DNA of 64,000 bases from Streptomyces hygroscopicus (GTDB lineage: Bacteria; Actinomycetota; Actinomycetes; Streptomycetales; Streptomycetaceae), in NCBI GenBank assembly GCA_002021875.1, contig CP018627.1, forward strand, positions 1,674,001-1,738,000, given 5' to 3'. Positions 32,449 to 52,824 of the stretch are shown here, one piece after another. How positions within the stretch are numbered: the first letter of the stretch is position 1; each line of letters begins with the position of its first letter. A program made the translations under genes and the position numbers. The notes beneath the pieces are model-generated. The model saw only the letters and a program-made list of their open reading frames with translations, did no database searches and was not told the origin of the DNA.

Positions 32449-35400
32449 TCAGCCCGGGGCGCCCAGCCGCTCCTCCGGCCGGTCGGCCGGATCGAGCCCC
32501 AGTTGCTGGGCGAGTCCCGCGGCCAGGGCCTCCAGGGTCGGATGCCGCCAGACGAAGTTGCCCGGGAGCTTGATGTTCAGCCCCGTCTCCAGGCGCACCC
32601 GCAGCTCCATGGCGAGCAGTGAGTCGAACCCCAGTGACCTCAGGGGGGTCTGCGGATCGAGGGTGGCGCCGCTGAGCCGCAGCACGGCGCGGATGTGGTC
32701 GGTCAGGTAGGACTCCAGCGCGGTGCGGCGGGCCGGCCCCGCGGGGAGTGCGGCCAGCCGGGCGCGGATGTCGTCGGTGCTCTCCCGGGCGGCCACCGGA
32801 GTGTCCTCCCCGGGGAGGAGCGGGGCGAACAGGGCGGACCGGCGGCCGGCGGCGGGGATCCAGGTGGCCGGTTCGCCGGGGATCACACCGGTCTGCACCC
32901 GCCGGTGGGCCAGCAGGGCGCCGAGCGCGCCGAGCCCCTGCTCGGTGGGGATCGTCTGATAGCCGAGGTCGGCGAAGCCGGTGGCCACTCCGGTCTCGCC
33001 CCACGGGCCCCAGTTGACCGCGAGGGTGGGCAGGCCGTGTGCCGAGCGCCATGCGGCGAAGCCGTCCAGCCAGGCGTTGGCGGCCGCGTAGGCGCCCTGT
33101 CCGGCGTTGCCGAGCAGCGACGCCATCGAGGAGTACACCGCGAACCAGTCGAGCCAGTGTCCCTCGGTGGCCTGGTGCAGCCGCCACGCCCCGGTGACCT
33201 TCGGCGCCCATACGCGGCCCAACTGGTCCTCTCGGATGTTGGCCACGGCCGCGTCGTCGAGGACCATCGCGCTGTGGACGACACCGTTCAGCGAGGCCCC
33301 GTCGGGGGCGGTGGCGGCGGCCACGAGCCGGTCGGCCGTGCCCGGGTGGCTGATGTCGCCGGTGACGACGGTGATCCTGGTGCCGGCGGCGGAGAGTTCG
33401 GCAAGCGTCCGCGCGGCGGCGCCGACCGGTGCGGTACGCCCGCTCAGCACCAGGTGGCCCGCGCCCTGCCGGGCCAGCCAGCACGCGGTGGCGAGCCCGA
33501 GACCGCCAAGGCCGCCGGTGACGATGTACGTACCGCCCTCGCATACCGTCAGCGGTCCATCGGGCAGGACGGCGTCGACCTGGCCCTCCTGCGGGATGGT
33601 CAGCACCAGTTTGCCGATGTGGCGGGCGCCGGCCATCAACCGGAACGCGTCGGTGACCTCCGCCAGCGGATAGGTGGTGCAGCGCAGTGGCCTCAGACGG
33701 CCCTCGGTGATCGCGGCGAGCACCTCGCGCAGCATCGCGGCGTACACCTGCGGGCGGGCCAGTTGCAGCTCTCTCAGGTCCACGGTGGAGAAGGTGATGT
33801 TGTGGCGCAGCGGGGAGAGTCCGAGCGGGGCGTCGGAGAGGATGTCGCGGACGCCGAGTTCGATGAAGCGGCCGAAGGGGCGCAGACACTCCAGCCCGGC
33901 CCGGATGGCCGATCCGGCGAGGGAGTTGAGCACGACGTCGACGCCCTCGCCTCCGGTGGCCTCCTGGACCTCGTCGCGGAAGTCCAGCGACCGGGAGTCC
34001 ATCACATGGGCGATGCCCATGGCCCGCAGGAAGCGCCGTTTCTCCTCGCTGCCCGCCGTGGCCAGCACCTCGGCGCCCAGCAGCCGGGCGACCGCGATGG
34101 CCGCGAGCCCGGTGCCGCCGGTGGCCGAGTGGATCAGCACCCGCTCCCCCGCGGTCACCTGGCCGATGTGGCGCAGCGCGTACCAGGCGGTGAGGAACGC
34201 GATCGGCAGCCCGGCGGCGGTGTCCGGGGCGAGGCCCTCGGGCAGGGGTGCGGTGCGGTCGGCGGGGACGACGGTGAACGATCCGAAGGCGCCGCCGTGC
34301 ACATCGGCCGCCACCACCCGGTCACCGGCGCGGAGATGGTCGACACCGGGGCCGACCGCGCTCACCTCGCCCGCGCATTCGAAGCCGAGCCGGTAGCGGA
34401 TGTTCTCGTCGCCGGGGAGCAGACCCATGGCGGTGAGGACATCGCGGAAGTTCAGGCCCGCGGCGAGCACCCGCAGCTCCACCTCACCGGGCCCGGGCCG
34501 GCGGCGGGGCGCGGTGGTGAGCTCCAGGCTGCCGAGGTCGCCGAGGCGGCCGGCGCGCAGCCGGAAGCCGTCGGTGCCGCAGCGCACGGTGCGGGCGGAT
34601 GCGGTGGTGCGTTCGGTGTCGGTGAGGGGCGCGTAGTCGAGCTCGGCGGTGTAGCGGGCGCTGTCGCGCAGTGCGATCTCCTCCTCGTGGCCGTCGGCGA
34701 GGAGTTCGGCGGCGAGGGTTTCCGCGAGCTCGTCGGGGGCGGCCGGGTCGGTGTCCACCAAGGTGGCCCGCAGCTCGGGGTGTTCCAAGGCGAGCACCCG
34801 CACGAGTCCGCGCAGCGGGCTCTGTCCGGGGTCGGCCAGGTCACCGGGGGTCACGGTGCGGGCGCCGCAGGTGGCGGCGTAGAGGCGGGGCGGTTCGGGG
34901 AAGCGGGCGGTGAGCGCCTGGGCGGCGGCGAGCAGCCGGCGGGTGCGGCGCAGTCCATCCCGCGCACCGCCGTCGGCGGGGCGCGGGCCGCACAGGAGCA
35001 CCACGGCGCGCGGCCGGTCTCCGGGGCGGGTGAGCCGGCTGGTGAGGGCGTCACGGAAGGCGTCGAGCCCCTCGTCGGCCAGGGGCGTCTCCCACACCCG
35101 GGCGGTGGCGCCGGCGTTGCGCAGGGCGGCGGCCACCGGGCGGGCGGTGCCGTCCGCCTCCCCGACGATCAGCCACCGTCCCGGGGGCCGGGTGGCCGCG
35201 GGCCGGGTGGCGCGCCGCCAGCCGACCTCGAGGAACCACTGGTCGGCCTCGGCCGTGCGGTCCGCGGCGGCGCTGTGGACGATCCGCAGCCCGTCGACGG
35301 CCAGGACCGGCCGGCCGTCCGCGTCGAGCAGGCGGACGTGCCCGACGGTGGCCCCGGGGGTGGTCTCGGCGAGCCGGGCGTGGCAGTACACGGCGGTCTC

Positions 35401-38400
35401 GGGGTCGCCGAGGACACGTACGCTCTGCATCCGCGCGGGCAGCAGCAGCCGCCGGTCGTCCTCGTCGAGCAGCCCGGCGAGAAGGAGTTGGGCGCACAGG
35501 TCGACGAGGACGGGGTGGATGCGCAGACCGTGTCCGGGGGCGCGGGCGGCCTCGGGGATCCGTACCCGGGCCCAGAAGCTGTTGCCGTGGCGGGCGGCGG
35601 ACACTTCGGTGATGCCCTGGAAAGCCGGTCCGTGTGCCACGCCCCGGGCCCGCAGATTGGCGTAGAGGGCGTTGGCCTCGACGGGCAGCGGATGGCGCAG
35701 GGCGAGGGTCCGGACGGACGCGGCGCGGGAGCGCGCCGGTGCGGCGAGTCTGCGGAGCACCGCGGTGGCCTGCCGCACCCAGGCGCCGTCCTCGTCGCGT
35801 CCGAACATCTCGCATTCGGCGCGGTCGACGGCGGCGATGGTCACCGTGGTGGAGAGCTCGGTGTGGTCGGCGAGCCGCAGCAGTTCGCGGAAGTGCAGAT
35901 CGGTGACCTCGACCTCCTCGGGCTCGGCGCCGAACACCTCGCAGGCGGCGGTGAGCGCGAGGGCGTAGGAGGCCGCGCCGGGCAGGACGGGCGCGTCGTG
36001 CACCCGGTGGTCGTCGAGCCAGGGCAGGGCCGCGGTGCCGGTGCGGGCGCGCCAGGAGTGGCGCACGGGTTCGCCGGGCATCTCCAGATGCGCGCCGGGC
36101 AGCGCGCCGGCCGGGCTTGCGTCGAGCGAGGCGTCGGAGGGCGCGGCGAGCGGGGCGTCGGCCCAGTGGCGGGTGCGGTCGAAGGTGATGGGCGGTACGT
36201 CGGCGAGGGCGGCGTCCGCGTACAGCACGGACCAGTCGACGGGGACGCCCGCGCAGTGCAGCGCGGCCAGCTGGGTCCGGAACGTGGCCGGCTCGTCCTC
36301 GTCGCGGCGGAGGGTGGGCAGGACGACGGGGTCCTTCACCAGACCGGCAAGACCGCGCAGGACGGGGTGGGTGATGACCGGGTGGGGGGATATTTCGACG
36401 TACACCAGGTGGCGGTCGGCCGCGGCGGCGGCGACGGCCGCGGAGAACCGGACCGGGTGGCGCAGATTGGCGCACCAGTATTCGGCGTCGAAGGCGGGCG
36501 GGGTGTGCGGATCGTCGAGGACGGTGGTGTAGAAGGGCACGTCCGGGCGGCGGGGGGTGAGGTCGGCCAGGGCGGTGCGCAGATCGGCCAGGAGCGGGTC
36601 CACCTGGGGTGAGTGCGAGGCGACGTCCACGGCGATCAGCGCGGCGGGCACGGAGCGGGCCTGCCAGCCGGCGACGAGCCGTTCGACGTGGGCGGTGTCC
36701 CCGGCCACCACGGTGGAGCCGGGCGCGGCCATGACGGCGACCGTGACCGCTGCCGCGGCGCCGCCGGTGTCGAGTTCGGCCTGCACCTCGTCGGCGCCGA
36801 GGTCCACCGTGGCCATGGTGCCGTTCCCGGCGACGCGGGTGAGCAGGGCGGAGCGGCGGCAGATCACCTTGGCCCCGTCGGCCGGGGAGAGCGCTCCGGC
36901 CACCACTGCGGCGGCGACCTCGCCCATGGAGTGGCCGATGACCCCGGCGGGCTGCACGCCGTGGGCGCGCCAGGTGGCGGCGAGCGCGGTCTGCAGGGCG
37001 AACAGCACGGGCTGCACCCGGTCGCAGCCGGTCACCGGAGCGCCGGAGCGGACGATGTCGAGCACCGAGAATCCGGACTCGGCGGCGATGAGAGCGTCGG
37101 CCTCGGCGAGCGCCTCGGCGAAGGCCGGTTCGCTCTCCAGCAGCCGCCGTCCCATGCCGGGCCACTGGGAGCCCTGTCCGGAGAACACCCAGATCGGCCG
37201 GCGGGAGACCTCGGCGCCCACGGCGCCGGTGACTACGGCGGGGTGGGCCTGACCGGTGGCGAACGCCCTCAGGGCGCCGATGAGTTCGGCGCGGGAGGCG
37301 GTGGTGACGCCGAGCCGTCCGCGGCCGGCGCCGCGGCGCAGCGCCAGGGTGTGGGCGATGTCGCGCAGCGGGGCGTCCGCGCCGTCGCCCTCCAGCCAGT
37401 CCGCCATCCGCCGCGCGGCGGATGGCAGCGCGGCCGGGGACCCGGCGGGGACGAGGAACACCTGCGGAACGGCGCGGGTGGCGGGCCGGGGCCGCCGCGG
37501 TGCGGGGCGGGAGGCGGGTGCGCGGGCGGCGGGGGGTTGTTCCAGCACCACATGGGCGTTGGTCCCGGAGAAGCCGAAGGAGGACACGGCGGCCAGCCGC
37601 GGGCCGGTGCGCACCGGCCAGGGGGTGAGCTCGCGGGGGATGAAGAGGCGGGTTCCGCCGGCGTCGATGGTGCGATTCCACCGGGTGAAGTGCAGATTGG
37701 GCGGGATCAGTCCACGGCCCAGGCACAGCACGGCCTTGATCAGGCCGGTGACCCCGGCGGCGGGCTCCAGATGGCCCAGGTTGGTTTTGACCGAGGCGAG
37801 GGCGCAGCGGTCGCGGCCGGTTCCGTAGACCTGGGCGAGGCTGGCGAATTCGACCGGGTCGCCGACGGGGGTGCCGGTGCCGTGGGCCTCGACCATCCCG
37901 ACATCGGCGGGGTCGACCCCGGCGCGGCCGAGGGCCTCCTCGTACAGGGCGCGCTGGGCGGTGGCCGAGGGTGCGGCGAGCCCGTCGGAGTGGCCGTCCT
38001 GGTTGACGGCCGAGCCGCGCAGCACGGCCAGGATCCGGTCCCCGTCGCGCACGGCGTCGGTGAGGCGTTTGAGGACGACGATGCCGCAGCCCTCGCCGCG
38101 GACGAAACCGTCGGCGGCGGCGTCGAAGGCATGGCAGTGGCCGGTGTGCGAGAGCATGCCCATCCGGTCGAACGAGCGGGTGATCCGCGGCTCGAACATC
38201 AGGGTGACCCCGCCGGCCAGGGCCAGATCGCATTCCCCGGCGCGCAGCGCCTGGGCCGCCAGGTGGACGGCGACCAGGGAGGACGAGCACGCGGTGTCCA
38301 GGGCCACGGAGGGGCCGTGGAAACCGAGGAGGTAGGAGATCCGGCCGGTGGCGACGCAGTGCCCGTTGGCCAGGGCGGAGCCCTCCAGCTCGCGGGGGTG

Positions 38401-38835
38401 CCGGTCGAGCCGGTTCATGTAGTCGTTGTAGCTGAGCCCGGCGAAGACGCCGGTGGCGGTGGAGCCGAGCCGGTCGGGTGGCATCCCGGCGTGTTCCAGG
38501 GCCTCCCAGGCCACTTCGAGCAGTAACCGGTGCTGGGGGTCGAGGATGTCGGCCTCGCGCCCGGAGACGCCGAAGAAGTCGGCGTCGAAGCCGGACACGT
38601 CGCGCAGATATCCGCCGCGGACGGGCGGCGCGGACTCGGACCGGGCGGTCGTCATGGGGTCTGCCGCCCAGAGCGCGGCGCGCTCGGCGGGCGGTTCGGC
38701 GACGGCGTCGCGTCCGTCGGCCAGCAGCCGCCACAGGGCGGCGGGCGAGTCGGTGTCACCGGGAAGCCGGCAGCCCATGCCGACGATGGCGATGCGGCCG
38801 GGGGAACGGCTGGGAGCGGGGGTGTGCTGGCTCAT
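32449..38835 (-). CDS. Single-module fully reducing type I polyketide synthase (KS-AT-DH-ER-KR-ACP)
   Basis: 2128 residues. KS about 15-435 (Cys183 in DTACSSS; EAHGTGTP and NLGHLEP His motifs); AT 545-870 (Ser636 in GHSMG; VASH at 738-741, His741, close to the methylmalonyl YASH type); DH from 915 (His943, HRVHDAPVLPG); ER 1445-1755 (SATGGTGLAAI near 1570); KR 1765-1945 (TGGLGGLG near 1771, Tyr1916); ACP 2040-2110 (Ser2072 in GFDSL). All active residues are present, except Asp replacing the usual Gly of the DH motif. No thioesterase and no docking domain. The layout equals mycocerosic acid synthase, which elongates a starter iteratively into methyl-branched chains; an iterative mode here is inference. 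Partner: the KS-like gene upstream. Confidence 0.92.
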   Translation of the reverse strand: MSQHTPAPSRSPGRIAIVGMGCRLPGDTDSPAALWRLLADGRDAVAEPPAERAALWAADPMTTARSESAPPVRGGYLRDVSGFDADFFGVSGREADILDPQHRLLLEVAWEALEHAGMPPDRLGSTATGVFAGLSYNDYMNRLDRHPRELEGSALANGHCVATGRISYLLGFHGPSVALDTACSSSLVAVHLAAQALRAGECDLALAGGVTLMFEPRITRSFDRMGMLSHTGHCHAFDAAADGFVRGEGCGIVVLKRLTDAVRDGDRILAVLRGSAVNQDGHSDGLAAPSATAQRALYEEALGRAGVDPADVGMVEAHGTGTPVGDPVEFASLAQVYGTGRDRCALASVKTNLGHLEPAAGVTGLIKAVLCLGRGLIPPNLHFTRWNRTIDAGGTRLFIPRELTPWPVRTGPRLAAVSSFGFSGTNAHVVLEQPPAARAPASRPAPRRPRPATRAVPQVFLVPAGSPAALPSAARRMADWLEGDGADAPLRDIAHTLALRRGAGRGRLGVTTASRAELIGALRAFATGQAHPAVVTGAVGAEVSRRPIWVFSGQGSQWPGMGRRLLESEPAFAEALAEADALIAAESGFSVLDIVRSGAPVTGCDRVQPVLFALQTALAATWRAHGVQPAGVIGHSMGEVAAAVVAGALSPADGAKVICRRSALLTRVAGNGTMATVDLGADEVQAELDTGGAAAAVTVAVMAAPGSTVVAGDTAHVERLVAGWQARSVPAALIAVDVASHSPQVDPLLADLRTALADLTPRRPDVPFYTTVLDDPHTPPAFDAEYWCANLRHPVRFSAAVAAAAADRHLVYVEISPHPVITHPVLRGLAGLVKDPVVLPTLRRDEDEPATFRTQLAALHCAGVPVDWSVLYADAALADVPPITFDRTRHWADAPLAAPSDASLDASPAGALPGAHLEMPGEPVRHSWRARTGTAALPWLDDHRVHDAPVLPGAASYALALTAACEVFGAEPEEVEVTDLHFRELLRLADHTELSTTVTIAAVDRAECEMFGRDEDGAWVRQATAVLRRLAAPARSRAASVRTLALRHPLPVEANALYANLRARGVAHGPAFQGITEVSAARHGNSFWARVRIPEAARAPGHGLRIHPVLVDLCAQLLLAGLLDEDDRRLLLPARMQSVRVLGDPETAVYCHARLAETTPGATVGHVRLLDADGRPVLAVDGLRIVHSAAADRTAEADQWFLEVGWRRATRPAATRPPGRWLIVGEADGTARPVAAALRNAGATARVWETPLADEGLDAFRDALTSRLTRPGDRPRAVVLLCGPRPADGGARDGLRRTRRLLAAAQALTARFPEPPRLYAATCGARTVTPGDLADPGQSPLRGLVRVLALEHPELRATLVDTDPAAPDELAETLAAELLADGHEEEIALRDSARYTAELDYAPLTDTERTTASARTVRCGTDGFRLRAGRLGDLGSLELTTAPRRRPGPGEVELRVLAAGLNFRDVLTAMGLLPGDENIRYRLGFECAGEVSAVGPGVDHLRAGDRVVAADVHGGAFGSFTVVPADRTAPLPEGLAPDTAAGLPIAFLTAWYALRHIGQVTAGERVLIHSATGGTGLAAIAVARLLGAEVLATAGSEEKRRFLRAMGIAHVMDSRSLDFRDEVQEATGGEGVDVVLNSLAGSAIRAGLECLRPFGRFIELGVRDILSDAPLGLSPLRHNITFSTVDLRELQLARPQVYAAMLREVLAAITEGRLRPLRCTTYPLAEVTDAFRLMAGARHIGKLVLTIPQEGQVDAVLPDGPLTVCEGGTYIVTGGLGGLGLATACWLARQGAGHLVLSGRTAPVGAAARTLAELSAAGTRITVVTGDISHPGTADRLVAAATAPDGASLNGVVHSAMVLDDAAVANIREDQLGRVWAPKVTGAWRLHQATEGHWLDWFAVYSSMASLLGNAGQGAYAAANAWLDGFAAWRSAHGLPTLAVNWGPWGETGVATGFADLGYQTIPTEQGLGALGALLAHRRVQTGVIPGEPATWIPAAGRRSALFAPLLPGEDTPVAARESTDDIRARLAALPAGPARRTALESYLTDHIRAVLRLSGATLDPQTPLRSLGFDSLLAMELRVRLETGLNIKLPGNFVWRHPTLEALAAGLAQQLGLDPADRPEERLGAPG

Positions 38836-38920: not shown

Positions 38921-40267
38921 TCAGGTGGTGTCCGGGCCGCCCAGCAGCATCGCGTGCTTCACGCCACCGATCTGGTAGTTGAAGCTGAGCGCGTGGCCGA
39001 AGTCGAGGGGACGGGTGCGGGTGCCGGGGACGGGGTCGAAGGGGAGTCCGTCCGCGGGCTGTTCGCAGTTGGCCGTGGGGCACACCTCGCCGAACTCCAT
39101 CATCATCAGGGTCAGGGCGAGGCCGACGCAGCCGGAGGCCGCTCCGTGGTGGCCGAAGCATCCCTCCTGGGAGGACATCAGCACGGTGGAGTCGGGGCCG
39201 TAGAGCTCGCGGATGGTGTTGGCCTCAAGGGCGGTGACGGCGGCGCCGCCGTCGCTGGCGCCGTTGATGTACGGCACCTGCTCGATCCGCCATCGGTCGC
39301 CCAGGCAGAGGCGGACGGCCCTGGCGAGCTGCGCACCCGTGTCGTCGGCGGCGAGCGGGGTGGCCAGGCCGTCGCGGGTCATGGCGGCGGCGAGCACCTG
39401 GCCGTAGAGGTGGGCGCCGCGGCGAGCGGCGTGCTGCCTGCTTTCCAGGATCACGGTGGCGGATCCCTCGCCGTGGTTGATGCAGTCGGCGCGCCGGTCG
39501 TAGGGGCGCATCAGGGAGTCGAAGGACGGCAGCAGATCGGGCATTCCGGCGGCGTCCACCGCGTCGTAGGCGTGCTGTGCGCCGCGCAGCAGCCGCTGCC
39601 CCTTCTGGATCAGGCCGACGTTGAAGACGTCGACGCCGGTCACCACCGCGAGGTCGGTCTCGCCGGTCGCGATGAGGCGGCGGGCGTTGCCGATCTGCAC
39701 GGCGGCGGAGGCGCAGCCGCAGGACACGGTGAAGCAGGGGCCGACGGTCCGGGTCAGCGCGCCCTGGACGACGGCCACATCGGAGGGGGACACGGCCTGT
39801 TCGGCCGCGACGAACATCTCCAGGGCGTCGAAGGTGGTGGTGGCGTCGGGGTCGACGCCGAGCAGGGTGAGATAGCTGTCCACATTGGCGTCCACGCTGC
39901 CGCGGCCGACGAGCAGGGCCGCCTCGGACAGATCACCGGCGGCCAGGTCGAGTTCGGCGTCGGCGCACGCCTCGACGAGAGAGACCAGGCCGTACCGGTG
40001 GGCGTTGGTGTAGTGGCGGGAGAAGAACTCGGGGATGTCGGGGAGTCGCTCCTCGAACTGCCCGGCGCTCAGGTGGACCGAGCCGTAGTGGCTGTTCAGC
40101 CGGTCGAGGACGGTGCGGCCCTGGGAGGCGATGTCCCACACCTGGGCCGCGGTGAAGACGGGTTCGGCGCCGCCCGGAAGGCAGAAGCCGAGGCCGGTGA
40201 CGACGGCGTCCCGGGCGTTCCCGGCGCCGCCCGGAGCCGGGCGGGATGGGTCGTGGGGCGAGCTCAC
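38921..40267 (-). CDS. Ketosynthase-like protein with altered active site
   Basis: 448 residues with the thiolase/KAS fold. The nucleophile Cys185 is present (VSCGCASAAVQIG) and the second His is kept (FGHHGAASG), but the first catalytic His (normally in NAHGTST) is replaced: YINGASDGGA has Ala there. The conserved Lys before the second His (SSTKSMTGH) is also lost (SSQEGCFGH), and the C-terminal GFGGTN is QIGGVK. It is thus unlikely to be an ordinary decarboxylating condensing enzyme; chain-length partner, acyl transfer or non-decarboxylating chemistry are options. Followed 85 bp on by the PKS gene in the same direction. GTG start at 40267 is chosen since the upstream frame is not coding-like; RBS is weak. 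Confidence 0.82.
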   Translation of the reverse strand: MSSPHDPSRPAPGGAGNARDAVVTGLGFCLPGGAEPVFTAAQVWDIASQGRTVLDRLNSHYGSVHLSAGQFEERLPDIPEFFSRHYTNAHRYGLVSLVEACADAELDLAAGDLSEAALLVGRGSVDANVDSYLTLLGVDPDATTTFDALEMFVAAEQAVSPSDVAVVQGALTRTVGPCFTVSCGCASAAVQIGNARRLIATGETDLAVVTGVDVFNVGLIQKGQRLLRGAQHAYDAVDAAGMPDLLPSFDSLMRPYDRRADCINHGEGSATVILESRQHAARRGAHLYGQVLAAAMTRDGLATPLAADDTGAQLARAVRLCLGDRWRIEQVPYINGASDGGAAVTALEANTIRELYGPDSTVLMSSQEGCFGHHGAASGCVGLALTLMMMEFGEVCPTANCEQPADGLPFDPVPGTRTRPLDFGHALSFNYQIGGVKHAMLLGGPDTT

Positions 40268-40788
40268 GGCGCTCTGCCGGATCTGGAAAGAGTCATGACG
40301 GTGGTCCCTTTCGCTCCCACCGGAGTACGGACCCGTCGGTATGGCGCGTCGCCGAAAGCGCGGTGGCACCGTCGGTGGGCCGGAATCCGTTCATCGGCGA
40401 ATTCGGCACGTACGGCGCGGCGTTGGGCGTACTCGAGGCCTTTCCTCGTTGGATGGTGAGTCGTCTCCGTTCGGGAGTCGCTCACCTTTCGGAAAGGACG
40501 GGTGGAATAGATGACGGTACGCCCAGGGAGACATGGGCCGGTAGGTGGTATCGCATCACCGAGGTGGATTCGGCCGGTCCGGCGCACCACTCTTGTACCC
40601 CCGGAGCCCGTGCCGCGCGACCCCTGGAAAGAAGAGGCTCGCGCCCCGGTTCACGCCCCCCTCTGGTGGAATCTTTCTGAAAGAGCGTACAGAAAAAGAC
40701 GCCTCAGGCATTCAATGAGTGTGGGGCGGTTTGAAAGCACGGAAGAGCCCTTCACGCATGGGGCAGAAACCGTAAAGGACGACAAAAG
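40268..40788. promoter_or_regulatory. 521-bp divergent intergenic region, relatively AT-rich
   Basis: No gene is supported here. The segment separates the ketosynthase/PKS transcript from the AsnC regulator gene and is less GC-rich than its surroundings, especially 40660-40790. A short palindrome TCTTTC-T-GAAAGA lies at 40672-40684, about 105 bp ahead of the AsnC start, and CCTTT-CGG-AAAGG lies near 40480. Either could be a regulator site, for instance for the AsnC protein, but neither has been tied to a known consensus. Confidence 0.45.
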
Positions 40789-41280
40789 ATGACATATCCG
40801 CCCCCACTGTTCGACGATCTGGACCGCAAGATCGTCGCGGCACTGGTCGCCAATGCCAGGACCAGCTTCACGGAGATCGGCGCCGCGATCGGGCTCTCGG
40901 CCTCGGCGGTCAAACGCCGTGTCGACCGGATGCGGGAGACCGATGTGATCACCGGCTTCACCACCACTGTGCGCCCGGCCGCCCTCGGCTGGCGGACCGA
41001 GGCGTATGTCGAGGTGTACTGCGACAGCGCCGCACCACCCCGGCGTCTCGCGGAGGTCGTGCGCAACTATCCGGAGATCATCGCGGCCATGACGGTGACC
41101 GGCGGCGCGGACGCCCTGCTGCATGTCATGGCCACCGATGTGGAGCACTTCGAGGAGGTGCTGGAGCGCATCCGGGCCGAACCGTTCGTCCGCCAGACGA
41201 TCAGCTACATGGTGCTGTCCCACCTGCTCACGGGCAGTCCGGAGGCCGGTTCGGCGCCACCCGCCACCGCGACGCAATGA
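40789..41280 (+). CDS. Lrp/AsnC-family transcriptional regulator
   Basis: 163 residues. N-terminal HTH (DDLDRKIVAALVANARTSFT, then IGLSASAVKRRVDRMRE) and C-terminal RAM ligand domain (EAYVEVYCDS; VTGGADALLHVMATDVEHFE). AAAGGACG precedes the ATG. Members respond to amino acids as octamers. Directly downstream lie the amidinohydrolase and ornithine aminotransferase genes, so arginine or ornithine is a reasonable effector guess. It might also act on the divergent PKS promoter across the shared region. Confidence 0.92.
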   Translation: MTYPPPLFDDLDRKIVAALVANARTSFTEIGAAIGLSASAVKRRVDRMRETDVITGFTTTVRPAALGWRTEAYVEVYCDSAAPPRRLAEVVRNYPEIIAAMTVTGGADALLHVMATDVEHFEEVLERIRAEPFVRQTISYMVLSHLLTGSPEAGSAPPATATQ

Positions 41281-43545: not shown

Positions 43546-43784
43546 TTCGTCATGTTCAATCCGCGCGCAGATTCTTTTTCAGCGACCCTGTCGCGGTGCC
43601 GCGAGAACGCCGGATCGCAGATAACGCCCAGGTCACGGCGGCCTTTTCGAGTTTTTATGTACGTTGTTGAGCATTCCACTGTTCCCGATCGCACGGTGTG
43701 GAACACTTCGTGTCATCTCGCCGGGTGGACCTGACGGGAAGTTGACGGTTCTCGCAGGTCGGCGCGGTGGAGAAGGCAAACGTC

Positions 43785-44408
43785 ATGGTGCGGAAAGGAG
43801 TTGCGGCTGGAGTGGACGGTGAGCCGGTCACGGTGACTGCCGCATACCGGGTGGACCCCGGCCGCGAAAGCGAGTTCTATGCCTGGGCGATCGAGATGCT
43901 CAATGCCGCGGCAAGCCTTCCGGGATATCTCGGAGGCGGGGTCATGGGATCCGGTTCGGCCTCCTCCGAGTGGCATGTCCTCTACCGGTTCGAGGCGGAA
44001 GGCCCGGCACGGGCATGGGATTCCTCGCTGGAACGTGCGCGATTGGCATCCCGGACCGGGCCCTTCGTCCAGGAAAAGGGAACACAGCGCACCTCGGGGC
44101 TGGAGAACTGGTTCAAGGGGCCGGTACGGCCGCTGCCGCCACCGCCCAAATGGAAGCTGTGGCTGGTGAATCTGAGTGCGGTGTTCCCTCCGGTCCTCAT
44201 CTTCAATGTGCTGGTGATCCCGTTCATCAAGGACACCAATTTCCTGCTGCGGACCCTGGCTCTGTGTCTTGGTGTGACCGCGATGGTGACCTGGCTGGTC
44301 ATGCCACGGCTGCAGCGGATTCTGAAGAAGTGGCTCTACCCGCCGCTTCAGTCGATACGAGGACGTCACAGGCGGATGGCGGCCGACGGCCCGCGCGCTC
44401 GCCGGTAG
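43785..44408 (+). CDS. ABM-domain (antibiotic biosynthesis monooxygenase-like) membrane protein
   Basis: 207 residues. Residues about 10-100 have the ferredoxin-like ABM fold (VTVTAAYRVDPGRESEFYAW, LPGYLGGGVM, EWHVLYRFEA); the C-terminal part has two membrane helices (about 131-147 and 153-174) and a basic tail facing the cytoplasm. ABM enzymes oxidise without cofactors, but many fused versions have no known activity. It is the first gene of the right-hand block, 78 bp ahead of pabAB. ATG at 43785 preferred because GGAGAAGG is 8 bp upstream; GTG at 43767 is the alternative. Confidence 0.78.
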   Translation: MVRKGVAAGVDGEPVTVTAAYRVDPGRESEFYAWAIEMLNAAASLPGYLGGGVMGSGSASSEWHVLYRFEAEGPARAWDSSLERARLASRTGPFVQEKGTQRTSGLENWFKGPVRPLPPPPKWKLWLVNLSAVFPPVLIFNVLVIPFIKDTNFLLRTLALCLGVTAMVTWLVMPRLQRILKKWLYPPLQSIRGRHRRMAADGPRARR

Positions 44409-44486: not shown

Positions 44487-46799
44487 ATGGAATCGCTGAG
44501 GACACTCCTCGTCGATCATCACGACTCGTACACGTACAACCTCTTTCATCTGCTGACCGAGGTCAACGGCGAGGAACCGGAGGTGCTTCTCCATGACGCG
44601 CCGGAATGCGCGGACATCGATCTGACCGCGTTCGACAACATCGTGCTCTCCCCCGGCCCCGGGCATCCGGCCGATCCACGGGACTTCGGCGCCACCGCCC
44701 GGCTGATCGAGCGGTCGACCATTCCGGTGCTGGGAGTGTGCCTGGGGCACCAGGGAATCGCGCTCGGCGCCCAGGCGCGGGTGGTGCCCGCGCCCGAACC
44801 GAAGCACGGGCATCTGTCCCGGATCAAACACGGCGGGCGCGGGCTGTTCCGCGGGCTGCCGCAGGACTTCACGGCCGTTCGCTATCACTCGCTGTGCGTG
44901 GCCGAGCCGCTGCCGCTGGGGCTGCAGGGCATCGCCTGGTCCGAGGACAGTGTGCTGATGGGGGTGCGGCACCGGGCCCGTCCGCTGTGGGGCGTCCAGT
45001 TCCACCCGGAGTCGGTGCTGACCGGATACGGCCACCGCATGCTCAGCAACTTCCGCGATCTGACCGTCGAACACGCCAACGGGGAGTCGGTGACCTCGAC
45101 CGTCGCCCCCGCCTCCGCCGAGGAGCCGCGCCGCGCCCGTACGGCGGCCGAACCGGCCCCGGGGTCTTCCGCCGCGCCGGGCTCCCCTCAGGCCCCGGAA
45201 GCGGACCCCCGAGCGGAGCCGGCGCGGCTCGACCCCGACCCGGGCGCCCCGGCGCAGACGCCCCCGGAAGGCCCCGCCTACCGGCTGCACGCCCGGTGGC
45301 TGGCCGATGCCACCGACACCGAGGCGGCCTTCACCCGGCTGTACGCGAAGGCGCCGCACGCGTTCTGGCTCGACAGCTCGCGCGCCGAGTCCGGCGAGGC
45401 GCGCTTCTCCTTCCTCGGGGACGGCACGGGCCCGCTCGCCGAGTTCGTCCGCTACGACACCGACACGGGCGTCTGCGAGGTCGAGCGGGCGGGACGGCCC
45501 GCCGCCCGGATCGAGGGCAGCGTCTTCGACTACCTCAAACGGGAGCTGGCCCGCCGCCGGGTGACCGCCCCCGGTCTCCCCTTCGACTTCACCGGCGGCT
45601 ATGTGGGCTACTTCGGCTACGAGCTCAAGGCCGACTGCGGCTCCCCCGGCCGCCACCGGTCCGCCACTCCGGACGCCTGCTGGCTCTTCGCCGACCGGTT
45701 CGTCGCGGTCGACCACCAGGAGGGCGTCACCTACATCTGCTGCCTCACCGAGGACACCCCCGACGGCCACCGGGAGGCGAAGGACTGGCTGGACACCACC
45801 GTGACCGTGCTCAGCGGGGTGCCGACGCTCACCGGCCCCGCCCCGCAGCCGCCCGCCCTCGCCACCACGGCCGCCGTGGAGCCCTGGCTGGTGCGGGACC
45901 GGGAGCGGTATCTGGCCTCGATCGAGGCGTGTCTGCGGGAGCTGCGCGCCGGGGTGAGCTATGAGATCTGCCTGACCAACGCCGCCTGGCTGCCCGCCCC
46001 CAGCGACAGTTACGCCTTCTACCGGGCCCTGCGGCGGTTCAATCCGGCCCCGTACGCCGCCTATCTGCGGTTCGGCGGCACCGATGTGGCCTGCGCCTCC
46101 CCCGAGCGCTTTCTGCGCATCACCCCCGACGGCACCGCCGAGGCCAAGCCGATCAAGGGCACCGCCCCGCGCGGTCAGGACCCGGAGCAGGACGCGCGGG
46201 CGCTCGCCGCCCTCGCCTCCAGCCCCAAGGCCCGCGCCGAGAACCTGATGATCGTGGACCTGCTCCGCAACGATCTGGGGCGGGTGTGCGCACCGGGCAG
46301 CGTGTATGTGCCACGCCTGATGAACACCGAGACCTACGCCACCGTCCACCAACTGGTCTCCACCGTGCGTGGCCGGCTGCGCCAGGAGACGACCGCCGTC
46401 GACTGCGTCCGGGCCTGCTTCCCGGGCGGCTCCATGACCGGCGCCCCCAAGCTGCGCACGCTGGAGATCATCGACTCGCTGGAGACCGAGGCCCGCGGTG
46501 TCTACTCCGGGGCGCTCGGCTACCTCAGCTGCAACGGCGCGGCCGACCTCAACATCGTCATCCGCACGGCCGTGTTCACCGGCGGCCGGACGCACATCGG
46601 CGCGGGCGGCGCCATCGTGCTCGATTCCGATCCGGCCGAGGAGTACGAGGAAATGCTGCTGAAGACCGCTGCCACCATGCGTGCCTACGAGGCCGTGGAG
46701 CCCGTCCCCGCCGGGGAGCCCGCCGGGGAGATGGACGACCTGCTCATGGCCGCCGCCGCGGCGCCACCGGCCCCCGCGGCGAAGGAGCCCGGCCGGTGA
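44487..46799 (+). CDS. pabAB: Fused aminodeoxychorismate synthase (PabA-PabB)
   Basis: 770 residues. N-terminal glutamine amidotransferase (1-195; Cys85 in GVCLGHQG, VQFHPESV with the His-Glu of the triad) is joined by a Pro/Ala-rich linker (about 200-260) to a chorismate-binding domain. Lys557 in PIKGT marks aminodeoxychorismate synthases (anthranilate synthases have PIAGT), and FPGGSMTGAPK follows. It turns chorismate and glutamine into 4-amino-4-deoxychorismate, from which the PabC-like lyase encoded downstream gives p-aminobenzoate. The fused form is common in antibiotic clusters that use PABA as starter (candicidin, chloramphenicol-type), in contrast to folate genes. AAGGAGG precedes the ATG; its stop overlaps the next start (GTGA). 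Confidence 0.95.
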   Translation: MESLRTLLVDHHDSYTYNLFHLLTEVNGEEPEVLLHDAPECADIDLTAFDNIVLSPGPGHPADPRDFGATARLIERSTIPVLGVCLGHQGIALGAQARVVPAPEPKHGHLSRIKHGGRGLFRGLPQDFTAVRYHSLCVAEPLPLGLQGIAWSEDSVLMGVRHRARPLWGVQFHPESVLTGYGHRMLSNFRDLTVEHANGESVTSTVAPASAEEPRRARTAAEPAPGSSAAPGSPQAPEADPRAEPARLDPDPGAPAQTPPEGPAYRLHARWLADATDTEAAFTRLYAKAPHAFWLDSSRAESGEARFSFLGDGTGPLAEFVRYDTDTGVCEVERAGRPAARIEGSVFDYLKRELARRRVTAPGLPFDFTGGYVGYFGYELKADCGSPGRHRSATPDACWLFADRFVAVDHQEGVTYICCLTEDTPDGHREAKDWLDTTVTVLSGVPTLTGPAPQPPALATTAAVEPWLVRDRERYLASIEACLRELRAGVSYEICLTNAAWLPAPSDSYAFYRALRRFNPAPYAAYLRFGGTDVACASPERFLRITPDGTAEAKPIKGTAPRGQDPEQDARALAALASSPKARAENLMIVDLLRNDLGRVCAPGSVYVPRLMNTETYATVHQLVSTVRGRLRQETTAVDCVRACFPGGSMTGAPKLRTLEIIDSLETEARGVYSGALGYLSCNGAADLNIVIRTAVFTGGRTHIGAGGAIVLDSDPAEEYEEMLLKTAATMRAYEAVEPVPAGEPAGEMDDLLMAAAAAPPAPAAKEPGR

Positions 46800-48397: not shown

Positions 48398-48469
48398 CGC
48401 GCCGCGGGCCCAACGACCGCGCCCGAGCGCACGGCCTCCCGACCGACTTCGAACGATGAGGACTTCGAT

Positions 48470-50059
48470 ATGTTGCAGCGGCTGCTCCCCGAGCGCGGGT
48501 TCTATCTGGGGCTGATGTTCCAGGAGGCCGCGGCCCGCCACGGCAGGGTCAGGGTGACCCTGGACCGGCCACTGGACGTCGCCCCCGACGCCGGAACCGA
48601 CCTCGGGTACACCGATCTGGCCGATCTGGTCGACGACCTGGCCGCCCGGCTGTGGTCGGCGGGGGTCCGCCCGAGCGAGCATGTGGCGATCCTCAAGGGC
48701 GACAACGTCGACATCGTGCTGCTGGCCTGTGCCGTCTCCCGGATCGGCGCGGTCCCGGCGCTGCTGTCGCCCTCGCTGGACGGACAGGTGGCCGCGGTGC
48801 TGCTGGACCGGCTGCACGCCCCCTGGCTGATCACCGACCGGGCGACGCTGGAGTCCACGCTGAGCACGGTGGACACCACTCTGGCCCGGGGCGTGCTGAC
48901 GGTGGACGAGGCGCCCGGGAACACCACCGCGCTGGCCGCGCTCGCCGGAGTGCCGCGCCGCCCGGCCATCCGGCTCCATCCCGGTGAGCCCTCGCTGATC
49001 ACCCACAGCTCGGGGACCACCGGCATACCGAAGCTGGCCGTGCACTGCCCGCACACCATGTGGAACCGGCTGGTGCCCCAGCAGGCGCTGGGCCGGGCCA
49101 CCCGCCGTGAACCGGCCGCGCTCCACATGTCGTTCGCGCACTCCCGCTTCTACCATCTGCTGGGTGTGCTGCTGCACTTCGGCAGCCCGCTGCTGCTGCT
49201 CGTCGATCCCGACCCGGCCCACGCCGGCCCGCTGCTGGCGGCACACCGCCCCGGCATCGTCGAAACGCATCCCAACACCTATGTGCTGTGGGAGGACCTG
49301 GCCGACGCGCCGGACGGGCCGCTGTCCAACGTCCGGGCGTACGGCTCCACCTTCGACGCCATCCACCCCCGTACGGTACGGCGGCTGCTCGCCGCCTCCC
49401 GGCGCCGCGACCCCCGGCTGATGCAGTTGTACGGGCAGAGCGAGACCGGGCCCATCGCCTTCTGCTGGTACACCCGGCGGGGCGCGGACCGGGTGCGGGC
49501 GCGGCGGGTGGGCACCGGCATCCCCGGCTTCACCCGGATCCGGGTGGTGGACGAGCGGGGCCGCACCTGCCCGCCGGGGGCGACGGGGGCCATCGAGGCC
49601 CGCACCCGCGGCCGGATCCTCACCTACCTCGGCGCGCCGGAGAGTTACGCCCGGCAGGTGGACCGGGGCTGGTGGCGGATGGGCGACATGGGCTACCGCG
49701 ACCGGTGGGGCGCGCTGTATCTGCTGGACCGTGAGGTGGACCAGATCTCCACCGTGGACAGCAATCTGGAGGTGGAGGACGAGCTGCTGTCGCGGATCGC
49801 CGACCTCCGGGAGGTGGTCATCGTCCACGGTCCGGAGCGGGAGCCGGTGCCGGTGGTGTGCACCCGGGGTGACCAGCCGCTGGACCCCGCCCGCTGGCGG
49901 GAGGCGACCGGGGATCTTCCGGCGCTGGCCGATCCGGTGCAGTGCCGCTTCGAGGATCTGCCGCGCACCGGCACCTGGAAGATCAAGCGGCTGGAGATCG
50001 CCCGGCTGCTCGCCACGGGTGAGCTGCCCACCCTGTCCACCGCCCCGGTCGGTGGCTGA
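48470..50059 (+). CDS. Second ANL-superfamily acyl-CoA ligase/synthetase
   Basis: 529 residues. P-loop SSGTTGIPK (about 179-187), hinge/A5 region QLYGQSETGP, RGWWRMGDMGYRDRWG (A7) and a C-terminal Lys in GTWKIKRLEIARLL. It belongs to a less characterised branch, not the benzoate-CoA type. Substrate might be a fatty acid, the finished polyketide, or an amino acid; nothing in the sequence decides. It sits 72 bp after the first ligase and 1 bp before the monooxygenase gene, so it is firmly in the operon. Confidence 0.82.
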   Translation: MLQRLLPERGFYLGLMFQEAAARHGRVRVTLDRPLDVAPDAGTDLGYTDLADLVDDLAARLWSAGVRPSEHVAILKGDNVDIVLLACAVSRIGAVPALLSPSLDGQVAAVLLDRLHAPWLITDRATLESTLSTVDTTLARGVLTVDEAPGNTTALAALAGVPRRPAIRLHPGEPSLITHSSGTTGIPKLAVHCPHTMWNRLVPQQALGRATRREPAALHMSFAHSRFYHLLGVLLHFGSPLLLLVDPDPAHAGPLLAAHRPGIVETHPNTYVLWEDLADAPDGPLSNVRAYGSTFDAIHPRTVRRLLAASRRRDPRLMQLYGQSETGPIAFCWYTRRGADRVRARRVGTGIPGFTRIRVVDERGRTCPPGATGAIEARTRGRILTYLGAPESYARQVDRGWWRMGDMGYRDRWGALYLLDREVDQISTVDSNLEVEDELLSRIADLREVVIVHGPEREPVPVVCTRGDQPLDPARWREATGDLPALADPVQCRFEDLPRTGTWKIKRLEIARLLATGELPTLSTAPVGG

Positions 50060-50060
50060 C

Positions 50061-51305
50061 ATGGCGGCGCGGAAGGAGAGCGGGCCGGTTCTGGTGGTGG
50101 GCGCCGGGCCGGTCGGGATGACGGCGGCGCTCACCCTGCGGGCCGCCGGGCTGCCGGTCACGGTGCTGGAGGCCGGGGCACGGGACCGGGTACGGCCCGG
50201 CAGCCGCGCGCTGTTCGTCCACCGCCGGTCGCTTCGGCTGCTGGAGCGGGCCCGCCCGGGGCTGGGCGCGCGGATCGCGGCGTACGGGACGACCTGGCAC
50301 ACCCGGCGCACCCTCTACCGCGGCCGTGAGGTGTTCGCACGGACCTTTCCGCGGGCCGCCGGAGACGGGGTCTCCGATGACGGGGGCTGCGGAGACGGGG
50401 CCGCGGCACTGCCCGCGTTCACCAGCCTGCGTCAGGTGGACACCGAGCGGTTCCTCTTCGAGGCGTGCACGGAGGCGGGCGTGGAGTTCCGCTTCGACGC
50501 CGAGGTGCACGGGGTGCGCTCGGACGGCGACGAGGTGACGGTGACCGCGAAGGACGGCGGAAGCTGGACGGCCGGCCATGTGATCGCCGCCGACGGGGCC
50601 CGTTCGGGGGTGCGCGAGGCGCTGGACATCCCGCTGGAGGGCACCCGGTCCGAGGGATATCACGTGGTCGTGGACGTGGCGGAGCCGGCCGGCGGGGACC
50701 TGCCGGTCGAGCGGGTCTTCCACTACGAGCACCCCGGCACCGGCGGCCGCACCGTACTGCGGGTGCCGTTCACCGGGGGCTTCCAGATCGATCTGCAGTG
50801 CCGCGCGGACGACCCGCCGGAGTCCTTCGGCACCGAGAAGGCGGTACGCCGCTGGCTGCCCCGGCTGGTGGGCGAGGACTGCGCGCACCGGGTGCTGTGG
50901 GTGTCGCGGTACCACTTCCTGCGCAAGGTGGCCGCGTCGTTCGCCGATCCGTCGGGCCGAGTGCTGCTGGCGGGTGAGGCCGCGCATCTGTTCCCGCCCT
51001 TCGGGGCCCGCGGGATGAACAGCGGGATCGCGGACGCCATCGCGGCGGCCGAGGCCGTGTCGGCGGCATGCTCCGAGCCGTCGCGGGGACCCGCGGCGGT
51101 GGCCGGGTACGCCGCCGCCCGCCGGAGCGCGGCCCTGCACAACAGTGAGGCCGCCGGGGCGGCCCTGGACCATCTGCGGCCCCGGCCGTGGAAGCGGGCC
51201 GCCCAGCGCGCGGCGGCGACTCTGGCCCCGGTGGTCCCCCGCTGCGGGGAGTGGCTGGAACGCGCTCCTTACGGCCCCCGGGGCGGCCCGGCGCGCGGCT
51301 ATTGA
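50061..51305 (+). CDS. Class A FAD-dependent aromatic monooxygenase with GEAAH motif
   Basis: 414 residues. FAD Rossmann motif VVGAGPVGM near residue 12, the DG motif VIAADGARSGVR near 175, and LLAGEAAHLFPPFGARGMNSG near 300. In this class the third motif normally reads GD..H, the Asp binding the FAD ribityl; here it is Glu. It would hydroxylate an aromatic ring, plausibly PABA or its CoA ester, at the expense of NAD(P)H. Starts two bases after the preceding ligase stop. Folded-soluble, no signal peptide. Confidence 0.88.
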   Translation: MAARKESGPVLVVGAGPVGMTAALTLRAAGLPVTVLEAGARDRVRPGSRALFVHRRSLRLLERARPGLGARIAAYGTTWHTRRTLYRGREVFARTFPRAAGDGVSDDGGCGDGAAALPAFTSLRQVDTERFLFEACTEAGVEFRFDAEVHGVRSDGDEVTVTAKDGGSWTAGHVIAADGARSGVREALDIPLEGTRSEGYHVVVDVAEPAGGDLPVERVFHYEHPGTGGRTVLRVPFTGGFQIDLQCRADDPPESFGTEKAVRRWLPRLVGEDCAHRVLWVSRYHFLRKVAASFADPSGRVLLAGEAAHLFPPFGARGMNSGIADAIAAAEAVSAACSEPSRGPAAVAGYAAARRSAALHNSEAAGAALDHLRPRPWKRAAQRAAATLAPVVPRCGEWLERAPYGPRGGPARGY

Positions 51306-51455
51306 CCGGCATTCCAGCGAGCGCGGCTAGGAATCCGGCCAGGCATCCGCGCACCGGACACCGGGCCACGCACGGGGAACACGGGGCAGCACGCATCGGA
51401 CATCGGAAACACCGGAAGCTTCGGACAACATCGGGACGGAGACGTGGAAGCGGAC

Positions 51456-52298
51456 ATGGTCGCTGCACAGAACATCGGTCACGCCGACGCGTCGGACCAG
51501 AAGCAGTGGACGCTGATGTGGCGCGAGGACGGCGGGCTGATGCCCTCCCGGGCGGTGCCGGACGCGGCACTGCTGGCCGCCGATTCCTGGCTGGTCGACG
51601 ACGGACGGGTGCGCGGGCTCGACCATCACCGCCGCCGGTTCGTCGCGGCGTGTGTCGAGGCGTCCGGTGACTCCCCCGCCCGGATCGAGAGCTTCTGGCG
51701 CGAGGCGATCGCCGCCCTGCCCCGTACCGAGCGCTGGTTCCCACGGGTCGAGCTGGCCGGTCCGGAGCCGGCCCGGCTGTTCCTGCGGATACGTCCGGCG
51801 CCGCCGCGGACGGCCAATGTGACCGTTTGCCTGACCGAGGAGTTCGATCCGCGGTCGTATCCCCGCCGTAAGGGCCCCGACCTCCCCCTGCTGGCCCATC
51901 TGCGCGAGCGGGCCGCCGCCCGGGGCGCGCAGGAGCTGATGCTCACCACCCCCTCCGGGCTGGTGCTGGAGGGGACGACGGCGAGCGTTCTGTGGTGGGA
52001 GGACGACGTCCTGTGTCTGCCGCCCCCGGGGCTTCCGCTGCTGGCGGGCGTGACCTCGGCCCTGATCCAGGACCGGGCGGCCGAGCTGGGCGTCCGCACC
52101 GAGCACCACAACCGCACCGTGCAGGAGCTGGACGGTCGTGAGGTGTGGCTGGTCAACGCGGTGCACGGAATCCGTCCGGTGACCGCCTGGCTGGGCCGTC
52201 CGCTGCGGGCGGGCCCGGCGCTGCGCGCCGGCTCCTGGCAGTCCTGGCTCGACGGCGCTTCCGATCCCCTGGTTTCGACGAACGGAGTTCACCGATGA
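51456..52298 (+). CDS. pabC: Aminodeoxychorismate lyase-like PLP enzyme (class IV)
   Basis: 280 residues. Class IV aminotransferase fold: ADSWLVDDGRVRGLDHHRRR in the small domain, the PLP Lys in YPRRKGPDLPLLAHLRERA, ELMLTTPSGLVLEGTTASV, and the late VWLVNAVHGIRPV. With PabAB it would release pyruvate from aminodeoxychorismate to leave p-aminobenzoate. Branched-chain or D-amino acid transaminase activity is an alternative for this class, but the operon favours PabC. ATG at 51456 chosen (GGAAG upstream); GTG at 51444 is possible. Stop overlaps the next ATG (ATGA). Confidence 0.85.
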   Translation: MVAAQNIGHADASDQKQWTLMWREDGGLMPSRAVPDAALLAADSWLVDDGRVRGLDHHRRRFVAACVEASGDSPARIESFWREAIAALPRTERWFPRVELAGPEPARLFLRIRPAPPRTANVTVCLTEEFDPRSYPRRKGPDLPLLAHLRERAAARGAQELMLTTPSGLVLEGTTASVLWWEDDVLCLPPPGLPLLAGVTSALIQDRAAELGVRTEHHNRTVQELDGREVWLVNAVHGIRPVTAWLGRPLRAGPALRAGSWQSWLDGASDPLVSTNGVHR

Positions 52299-52792
52299 CG
52301 ACGACCACCCCGGCCCGCACCACCGCCCGGCTGGATCTGAAGGGCCTCGCCCCCGAGGTCTCCGCCGCGATGGGCGAGCTGCACCGGGCGGCGGTGCGGG
52401 CGGCCCGGGCGGCGGGGGTCGAGCCCGAGCTGCTGGAGCTGGTGCGCATCCGCGCCTCGCAGCTCAACGGCTGCGCCTTCTGCCTGGACATGCACACCAA
52501 GGACGCCCGCGCCCAGGGCGAGACCGAGCAGCGGATCCACACCCTCGGCGCCTGGCGGGAGACCCCGTTCTTCACCGAGCGGGAGCGGGCCGCGCTCGCC
52601 CTGGCCGAGGCGGTGACCTCGGTCCAGGACGGCCAGGTGCCGGACGAGGTCTACGCGTCGGCCCGCGAGGTGTTCGACGAACCGCAGGTGACGGCGGTGA
52701 TCTGGGCCGCCGTCGTGATCAACGCCTACAACCGCACGGCGATCAGCGCACGGATGGTGCCCGGCGCCTATCAGCCCGCCCCGCGCTCCTGA
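52295..52792 (+). CDS. AhpD-like carboxymuconolactone decarboxylase-family protein
   Basis: 165 residues. The alkylhydroperoxidase AhpD core is NGCAFCLDMHTKDA with redox pair CAFC and the nearby His, flanked by helices (ELLELVRIRASQLNG; ALALAEAVTSV). Members reduce peroxides or act as thiol-based oxidoreductases. It is the last gene of the PABA block, translationally coupled to the lyase gene and followed by a strong hairpin. It may protect from peroxide leaked by the flavin monooxygenase, or take part in aromatic chemistry; both are inference. Confidence 0.9.
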   Translation: MTTTTPARTTARLDLKGLAPEVSAAMGELHRAAVRAARAAGVEPELLELVRIRASQLNGCAFCLDMHTKDARAQGETEQRIHTLGAWRETPFFTERERAALALAEAVTSVQDGQVPDEVYASAREVFDEPQVTAVIWAAVVINAYNRTAISARMVPGAYQPAPRS

Positions 52793-52796
52793 CCCC

Positions 52797-52824
52797 GACA
52801 CCGGTGCGAGCGCGCGCCGGTGTC
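52797..52824 (+). terminator. Hairpin terminator closing the PABA block
   Basis: GACACCGGTGCG (52797-52808) pairs with CGCGCCGGTGTC (52813-52824), 12 bp with one wobble and a 4-base loop, starting right behind the AhpD-like stop. It marks the end of the biosynthetic transcript. Confidence 0.85.

Follow-up and report, generated by a model that had tools for sequence, protein, structure and literature searches.

A p-aminobenzoate gene cluster with a diazotase-like adenylate-forming enzyme in Streptomyces hygroscopicus, set apart from a neighbouring polyketide synthase unit

We analysed a 64,000-nucleotide stretch of the Streptomyces hygroscopicus genome (assembly GCA_002021875.1, contig CP018627.1, positions 1,674,001 to 1,738,000; this whole stretch is called the window, and coordinates count from its first letter). 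The host is a 12.0-Mb single-contig Streptomyces genome. The window holds a left block of one polyketide synthase (PKS) and one ketosynthase, and a right block of genes around p-aminobenzoate (PABA), which the initial annotation had united in one pathway to an aryl-primed or PABA-acylated, highly reduced lipid. On balance, we favour the view that the right block is a self-contained cluster that diazotises PABA or hydroxy-PABA and is unrelated to the PKS, a view drawn from sequence comparison. Because its adenylate-forming enzyme, AcLig2, resembles nitrite-activating diazotases, the chemistry now predicted is N-N bond formation on an arylamine in place of an aryl lipid.

The right block consists of seven genes on the forward strand. 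The first (43767..44408) is an open frame for a small membrane protein, whose homologues, 49–55% identical, stand beside PabAB in all 11 PABA-type loci L091-L101. The gene is thus present as annotated; its name, ABM, is one that we assume, as no Pfam or NCBIfam model matched the protein. PabAB (44487..46799), a fused aminodeoxychorismate synthase (ADCS) with GATase and chorismate_bind domains, exceeded the cut-off of the pabB model TIGR00553 (344.1 versus 328.4 bits) and contains the motifs PIKGT, which we take to be the ADCS-type lysine motif, and GVCLGHQ. BzLig, a benzoate-CoA-type ligase that starts at 46796 (GTG, overlapping the PabAB stop) or 46805 (ATG) and ends at 48397, has AMP-binding and AMP-binding_C domains; benzoate-CoA ligases are its nearest solved chains, and its score with the curated benzoate-CoA ligase model TIGR02262 (325 bits) was below the cut-off of 375.25. 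It is followed by AcLig2 (48470..50059), which solved matches, motif and tree mark as diazotase-like, and by FMO (50061..51305), an FAD-dependent aromatic monooxygenase with a FAD_binding_3 domain whose nearest solved chains are a rifampin-monooxygenase-type enzyme and RubL. The PabC-like aminodeoxychorismate lyase (51444..52298) matched Aminotran_4 (PF01063), and the best lyase model, PRK07849, gave 51 of the 273 bits needed for the specific assignment. The last conserved gene (52295..52792) encodes an AhpD/CMD-family protein over the cut-offs of CMD and ahpD_dom, which was also present in 11 of 11 loci L091-L101. PABA synthesis is therefore indicated by family membership, strongly for PabAB and weakly for PabC. 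PabAB and BzLig overlap, as do PabC and the AhpD gene, AcLig2 and FMO almost touch, and the widest gap is 138 bases; positions 43767-52792 read as one operon. The gene content annotated for the blocks stood, whereas the right block ends at 52792 rather than at 52824.

To place the cluster, 246 Streptomyces genomes, one per species, were surveyed with AcLig2 and the ketosynthase as queries. Genes of the relatives were called with a simple GC3 script, which mis-framed some of them; applied to the window, its filter listed most frames of the blocks and missed ABM, BzLig and FMO. In the close relatives L006-L008, the seven right-block proteins were 87–96% identical to those of the window over 90–105% of their length, and chance is therefore excluded for the right block. 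The block (ABM, PabAB, BzLig, AcLig2, FMO, PabC and AhpD) was found in 30 of the 246 genomes and, whole or partial, in Lentzea, Actinokineospora and Nonomuraea. AcLig2 at 67–100% identity occurred at 31 loci in 30 genomes, and any relative at E≤1e-100 in 67 genomes; the nearest named relatives were in S. violaceusniger, S. iranensis, S. rugosispiralis and S. endocoffeicus (95–96%). PABA formation, activation and oxidation, as first annotated, thus appear as one conserved cluster with family matches. Neither a described pathway matching the right block nor a PABA diazotase cluster was found in the open-licence literature of PubMed Central (PMC), in agreement with the annotators' remark that they knew the gene set from no described pathway.

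AcLig2 carries an AMP-binding domain and the ANL adenylate-forming fold, as a diazotase does. Its best solved matches were 8tf7/9bq0 (5.5e-29), which are Tri17, described as an N-N bond former (PMC11705231); then 9xb8 (1.3e-22), labelled a fatty-acid-CoA ligase; and then 8ztz (4.6e-18), entitled 'ATP-dependent diazotase CmaA6' in the PDB and fourth among the solved chains. No paper on 8ZTZ, 9IJF or 9XB8 was found in open-licence PMC. AcLig2 shares the motif HSSGTTG with Tri17 and AvaA6, at whose first place five rows of the CoA-ligase group have Tyr or Phe (e.g. YTSGTTG), and its LDREVDQI resembles LDRAPDAI of AvaA6. In its own genome, the nearest paralogue of AcLig2 (3.941 Mb, E 1.1e-85) adjoins CreE- and CreD-type genes, the latter scoring 725 bits with the nitrosuccinate lyase model (cut-off 650). 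The second-nearest (9e-21) is an AvaA6 orthologue, and the other four AMP-binding matches listed were at 2.4e-15 and weaker. An IQ-TREE tree of 47 rows, with CreM, Aha11, SpiA7, Pzm18 and NapB4 outside it, placed the AcLig2 clade (25 rows), the diazotases (12 rows, 9xb8 among them) and the CoA-ligase group (10 rows) each on one side of its own branch (100/99, 100/99 and 100/100, respectively). Of the original label 'second acyl ligase', the adenylate-forming enzyme was upheld, whereas the grouping with CoA ligases was not, as tree, motif and neighbours set AcLig2 near nitrite-using diazotases. The label was also of the kind in public use: among the best 120 rows, homologues of AcLig2 bear generic names such as class I adenylate-forming enzyme or acyl-CoA synthetase. 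The AvaA6 orthologue (3-aminoavenalumate diazotase; G000:C1:11000413-11002068) itself scored 1120 bits against a cut-off of 975.

Several observations weigh against a diazotase function. In the tree, AcLig2 falls outside the clade of characterised diazotases, and a joint branch with them needs a root among the CoA ligases; the tree also has long branches that meet. With the AvaA6 model, AcLig2 scored 87 bits against the cut-off of 975, and three generic ligase models scored higher. The fold does not discriminate: the AlphaFold2 model of AcLig2 (mean predicted local distance difference test score 86.6) matched CmaA6 best by Z (38.4; root-mean-square deviation 3.2 over 502 residues), CoA ligases came within 1 Z of CmaA6, and Foldseek ranked 1ult first and CmaA6 second. 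No nitrite-source gene lies within the 64-kb window. A CreD gene within 30 kb was found at none of the 31 Streptomyces PABA-type loci, CreD over the cut-off was not enriched among carriers of AcLig2 (10/30 versus 55/216 other genomes, p 0.24), and 11 of the 30 carriers had neither CreD over the cut-off nor DUF3050, a domain considered below. Finally, AcLig2 has lost its ATP loop in one sub-branch (L010, L015, L089), and activity of the gene is therefore not retained throughout.

The generic models that outscore the AvaA6 model would also suit an AcLig2 that is an acyl-activating ligase or an amide synthetase of the McbA kind, in a block making PABA-derived amides or esters. By fold, AcLig2 matches amide synthetases and CoA ligases almost equally well; 9xb8, second among its solved matches, bears the label of a CoA ligase; and a C-terminal TWK stretch is invariant in the 25 aligned proteins, its Lys being presumably the catalytic Lys of acyl ligases. 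However, AcLig2 stands apart from the CoA ligases in the tree and has His in the P-loop motif, and its nearest paralogues and neighbours are nitrite or N-N genes. We therefore regard an acyl ligase as rather unlikely.

Nitrite genes were found around relatives of AcLig2. Among AcLig2-clade loci at 42–54% identity, 38 of 68 had a CreD gene within 20 kb (counted from 77 listed matches over the cut-off and two slightly below it). Nitrite genes are thus associated with the sister branches of AcLig2, whereas the PABA-type loci of Streptomyces show no such tie to CreD. In-cluster nitrite sources were seen in two relatives only. In Lentzea alba (L023), the whole right block stands beside a class II DAHP synthase, a nitrosuccinate lyase (632 bits, slightly below the cut-off of 650) and a NAD_binding_9 FAD protein, which no NCBIfam model names and which we take to be of the CreE kind. 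In an actinomycete of another family (G428, L182), the right block is accompanied by a molybdopterin oxidoreductase, an MFS transporter and a BFD-type reductase; in our reading, the first would be a nitrate-reductase-type enzyme and the second NarK. A 'nitrosuccinate lyase' at E≤1e-120 was found in 30 of 30 carriers and was dropped as evidence, because the weaker matches include PcaB; the copy at 4933402 of the window's own genome sits in what we presume, from the translations, to be a pca operon. Nitrate-reductase-type genes also lie near the AcLig2 relatives L104, L105 and L106, with CreE/CreD in L104 and L105 and an arylamine N-acetyltransferase-type gene, which Pfam supports in L106.

The nearest paralogue belongs to a second PABA cluster of the same genome (G000:C1:3930226-3950223; L137/L138), whose PabAB is 50% identical. 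This cluster holds a PobA-type hydroxylase (4-hydroxybenzoate 3-monooxygenase subfamily, 560 bits), a UbiA prenyltransferase, a polyprenyl synthase and a Pyr4-type terpene cyclase along with the paralogue, CreE, CreD, MMPL and PabC, and looks like a route to a meroterpenoid derived from PABA, with an N-N step included. Literature on furaquinocin and diazotisation in open-licence PMC had nothing on an AcLig2-type enzyme.

On the favoured view, the cluster would operate as follows. PabAB and PabC would provide p-aminobenzoate, and FMO, judged by its family, would hydroxylate the ring; in other diazotase substrates, a hydroxyl group in the ortho or para position relative to the amine is described as stabilising the diazo form (PMC11705231). 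BzLig would, again by family, convert the carboxylate to an adenylate or CoA ester. AcLig2 would form no thioester; it would activate nitrite with ATP and transfer it to the aryl amine, and the product would be a diazonium or quinone-diazide form of (hydroxy)PABA that is later coupled or removed. Other parts of the genome would supply the nitrite, for example through the CreE/CreD pair at 3.943-3.947 Mb, away from the window.

A further association was found with DUF3050. A DUF3050 gene was present in 15 of the 30 AcLig2 carriers and in 2 of the 216 other genomes (p 5e-14), and lay 5.4–6.5 kb from AcLig2 in 12 of the 15, the other three having the two genes on different contigs. Nonomuraea has it as well (L024, L025), as do two genomes from another family (L186, L187); at L185 it lies beside an AcLig2 relative where PabAB is absent. 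No match was obtained in the window's own genome. The 30 carriers showed no tendency for DUF3050 and CreD to replace one another (CreD in 6/15 with and 4/15 without DUF3050). DUF3050 is predicted to hold a diiron centre (PMC4520260), and by our own reading the diiron ligand types are invariant in 13 aligned proteins. In the mangotoxin operon, MgoB is a DUF3050 match, and an mgoB mutant is reported to have still produced mangotoxin, in slightly smaller amounts (PMC3298696); this operon and the ham diazeniumdiolate operon are described as homologous (PMC5878181). HamA, a heme-like oxygenase, was dispensable for hydroxylamine intermediates, and hamA mutants fed the diazeniumdiolate-stage intermediate yielded the products, as described in PMC11659414. 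In our view, HamA is probably of the same family as DUF3050, and these data would fit a role near the N-N step. The Nonomuraea loci L024 and L025 add to the block, besides DUF3050, a tryptophan-halogenase-type gene and an aldehyde-dehydrogenase-like gene, with a LuxR regulator shown for L025, and may perhaps be a halogenated variant.

A predicted diiron oxidase (PMC4520260) tied to the cluster would be expected if the cluster oxidised the PABA nitrogen to a nitroso, nitro or azoxy group, with DUF3050 as the N-oxygenase and AcLig2 activating the product. However, DUF3050 is absent from the window's own genome and from 15 of the 30 carriers and cannot be a core step here, which makes this scheme improbable. 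A wider proposal, which we put forward only tentatively, is that PABA or 4-amino-3-hydroxybenzoate is diazotised across actinobacteria by a new clade of nitrite-activating ligases, and that lineages have swapped the nitrogen source among aspartate-nitrosuccinate genes, nitrate reductase and DUF3050 as a new supplier of nitrite or a nitrosyl. If so, such a supplier would also account for DUF3050 in diazeniumdiolate operons, and a domain without an assigned reaction would become a candidate nitrogen-oxide supplier. The cluster kind is present in about one-eighth of the sampled Streptomyces genomes and is masked by the generic names of AcLig2 homologues; if AcLig2 does diazotise PABA, a common substrate would be added to enzymatic diazotisation, and with it a hidden class of reactive metabolites.

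Reduced forms of the cluster bear on what PABA is used for. In L010, L015 and L089 (G069), no match to ABM, BzLig, FMO or AhpD was obtained, and a search of the G069 genome for BzLig at E≤1e-60 found none. The frames of PabAB, AcLig2 and PabC stay open, with ratios of nonsynonymous to synonymous substitution rates (dN/dS) among the three loci of 0.13–0.22 for PabAB and PabC and, pairwise, of 0.18–0.28 for AcLig2. In AcLig2 (L010:10001-11590, L015:10001-11302, L089:15292-16881), the ATP loop reads HGPGATGIPR, HGPGAAGIPR or HGPEIAGIPR in place of HSSGTTGIPK, and in the L015 protein about 95 residues towards the C-terminus, the bulk of its C-terminal portion, are also missing; these copies are probably not ATP enzymes. 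The reduced relatives might suggest that PABA itself is the substrate of AcLig2, a reading that was dropped on account of the lost loop. Decay of AcLig2 thus seems to accompany the loss of BzLig and FMO, which fits one joint pathway for these enzymes. Open PabAB and PabC frames in such remnants could be taken to mean that the block serves extra PABA supply, PABA secretion or a folate-type use. This is quite improbable, given another PabAB-type gene in the window's own genome and the retention of both ligases and the monooxygenase across genera.

The left block is composed of two genes on the reverse strand. The PKS (32449..38835) is a single fully reducing module, KS-AT-DH-ER-KR-ACP, and no thioesterase match was found in it by domain profile search; this architecture is that of mycocerosate-type iterative PKSs. 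Its AT domain has the motif VASH, which we take to be a sign of methyl branching. The partner (38921..40369) is a divergent FabF-like ketosynthase that passed the Pfam ketosynthase cut-offs and remained below every listed NCBIfam cut-off. Both CGCAS and the second-His GH are retained; by eye, Cys and the second His are kept at the presumed catalytic places, where the first His is replaced by Asn and the Lys by Gln. His occupies the first-His place in the other six of seven aligned ketosynthases from PKS-linked loci. The protein may perhaps transfer acyl groups instead of elongating chains. These domain matches and residue changes agree with the annotated single reducing PKS without thioesterase and its odd ketosynthase, and every other gene type that had been named was likewise found in its place.

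The two blocks do not travel together. The ketosynthase at E≤1e-40 was present in 28 of the 246 genomes, and it occurred with AcLig2 (at least 67% identity) in five (Fisher p 0.24), or in seven (p 0.051) if two genomes that lost AcLig2 from their right block are included. The blocks stand side by side at one locus only, in six violaceusniger-like genomes (G000, G055, G069, G096, G150, G179); with these removed, 1 of 26 carriers had both markers (p 0.93), and in this one (G238) they lie on different contigs of a draft. No right-block gene was found at ten ketosynthase loci (L107-L116), and neither PKS nor ketosynthase at the eleven PABA-type loci L091-L101. The PKS adjoins the ketosynthase at all ten of the former; in more distant ketosynthase loci (L117-L120, 50–52%), the PKS match was absent in all four. 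Beyond the pair, two gene families recurred in 6 of the 10 loci and one in 5, as called by the GC3 gene finder. Decay has also struck the blocks separately: Streptomyces sp. NBRC 110028 (L009) has only fragments of the PKS and ketosynthase beside seven full-length right-block genes, whereas G055 has both left-block genes at full length and a broken right block. The right block of G150 is broken as well, and its PKS match ends at the contig edge; in G055 and G150, AcLig2 is missing and BzLig and FMO are partly missing. The initial annotation had itself named independent occurrence in other genomes as the outcome that would speak against a union, and this is what was observed, at 10 of 10 and 11 of 11 loci. 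The joint pathway is rejected because the blocks occur independently; the PKS and ketosynthase are a separate two-gene unit that neighbours the PABA block by chance. Despite adjacency in 6 of 246 genomes and the p of 0.051 over all of them, counting two broken right blocks, a single aryl-primed or PABA-acylated reduced lipid is thus very improbable, with the PKS independent and other genes between the blocks.

The genes between the blocks, all on the forward strand, encode an Lrp/AsnC regulator (40789..41280; PF13404, PF01037), a dimethylargininase-like enzyme (41414..42223; DDAH_eukar/ADI) and an ornithine aminotransferase (42223..43485; TIGR01885 over cut-off), and their order is identical in L006-L010, L015, L017 and L019. 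On the 3' side of the right block, a membrane protein gene and a Rv2632c-like gene (52847-53902) were matched in close relatives only and are probably outside the block.

Among known systems, the ATP-dependent arylamine diazotases CreM, AvaA6, CmaA6, Aha11 and SpiA7 and the N-N bond former Tri17 are ANL AMP-binding enzymes, as is AcLig2, and AvaA6, CmaA6 and Tri17 share its HSSGTTG and LDR-x-x-D stretches. In keeping with such systems, relatives of AcLig2 lie beside nitrite genes, and the window cluster itself makes an arylamine. It differs in the separate clade of AcLig2, in PABA as the substrate branch and in the absence of CreE/CreD from the window. Two loci with AcLig2 relatives, L121 and L122, have genes that we take, from their translations, to be a class II DAHP synthase, PhzE-like and PhzD-like genes and a monooxygenase, and resemble a 3-hydroxyanthranilate or penzonemycin-type cluster. 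The penzonemycin (pzm) cluster is described as combining an aminobenzoate derivative with a CreM-like enzyme, as the right block does, but it has a 3-hydroxyanthranilate core with CreD/CreE (PMC11705231); L121 and L122 are more like it. The cma and ava clusters, for p-coumaric and avenalumic acid, follow the same logic of aminobenzoate, activating ligase and diazotase, and 72 of 134 clusters of the cma/ava type were reported without nitrite genes (PMC10777205). Their kind of KS/CLF/ACP is absent from the right block. Candicidin-type PABA-primed polyketides also depend on PabAB and PABA activation, and use a multi-module PKS; the window has no linked multi-module PKS, and its one module is an independent locus, so that the contrast drawn in the initial annotation holds. 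Lastly, the ham/mgo/pvf operons are described as having a DUF3050 protein (MgoB) within an N-N bond pathway, and thereby recall the DUF3050-linked clusters, but they act on an amino acid bound to a nonribosomal peptide synthetase and use an AurF-type HamC (PMC5878181, PMC3298696, PMC11659414), whereas the genome analysed here is without DUF3050.

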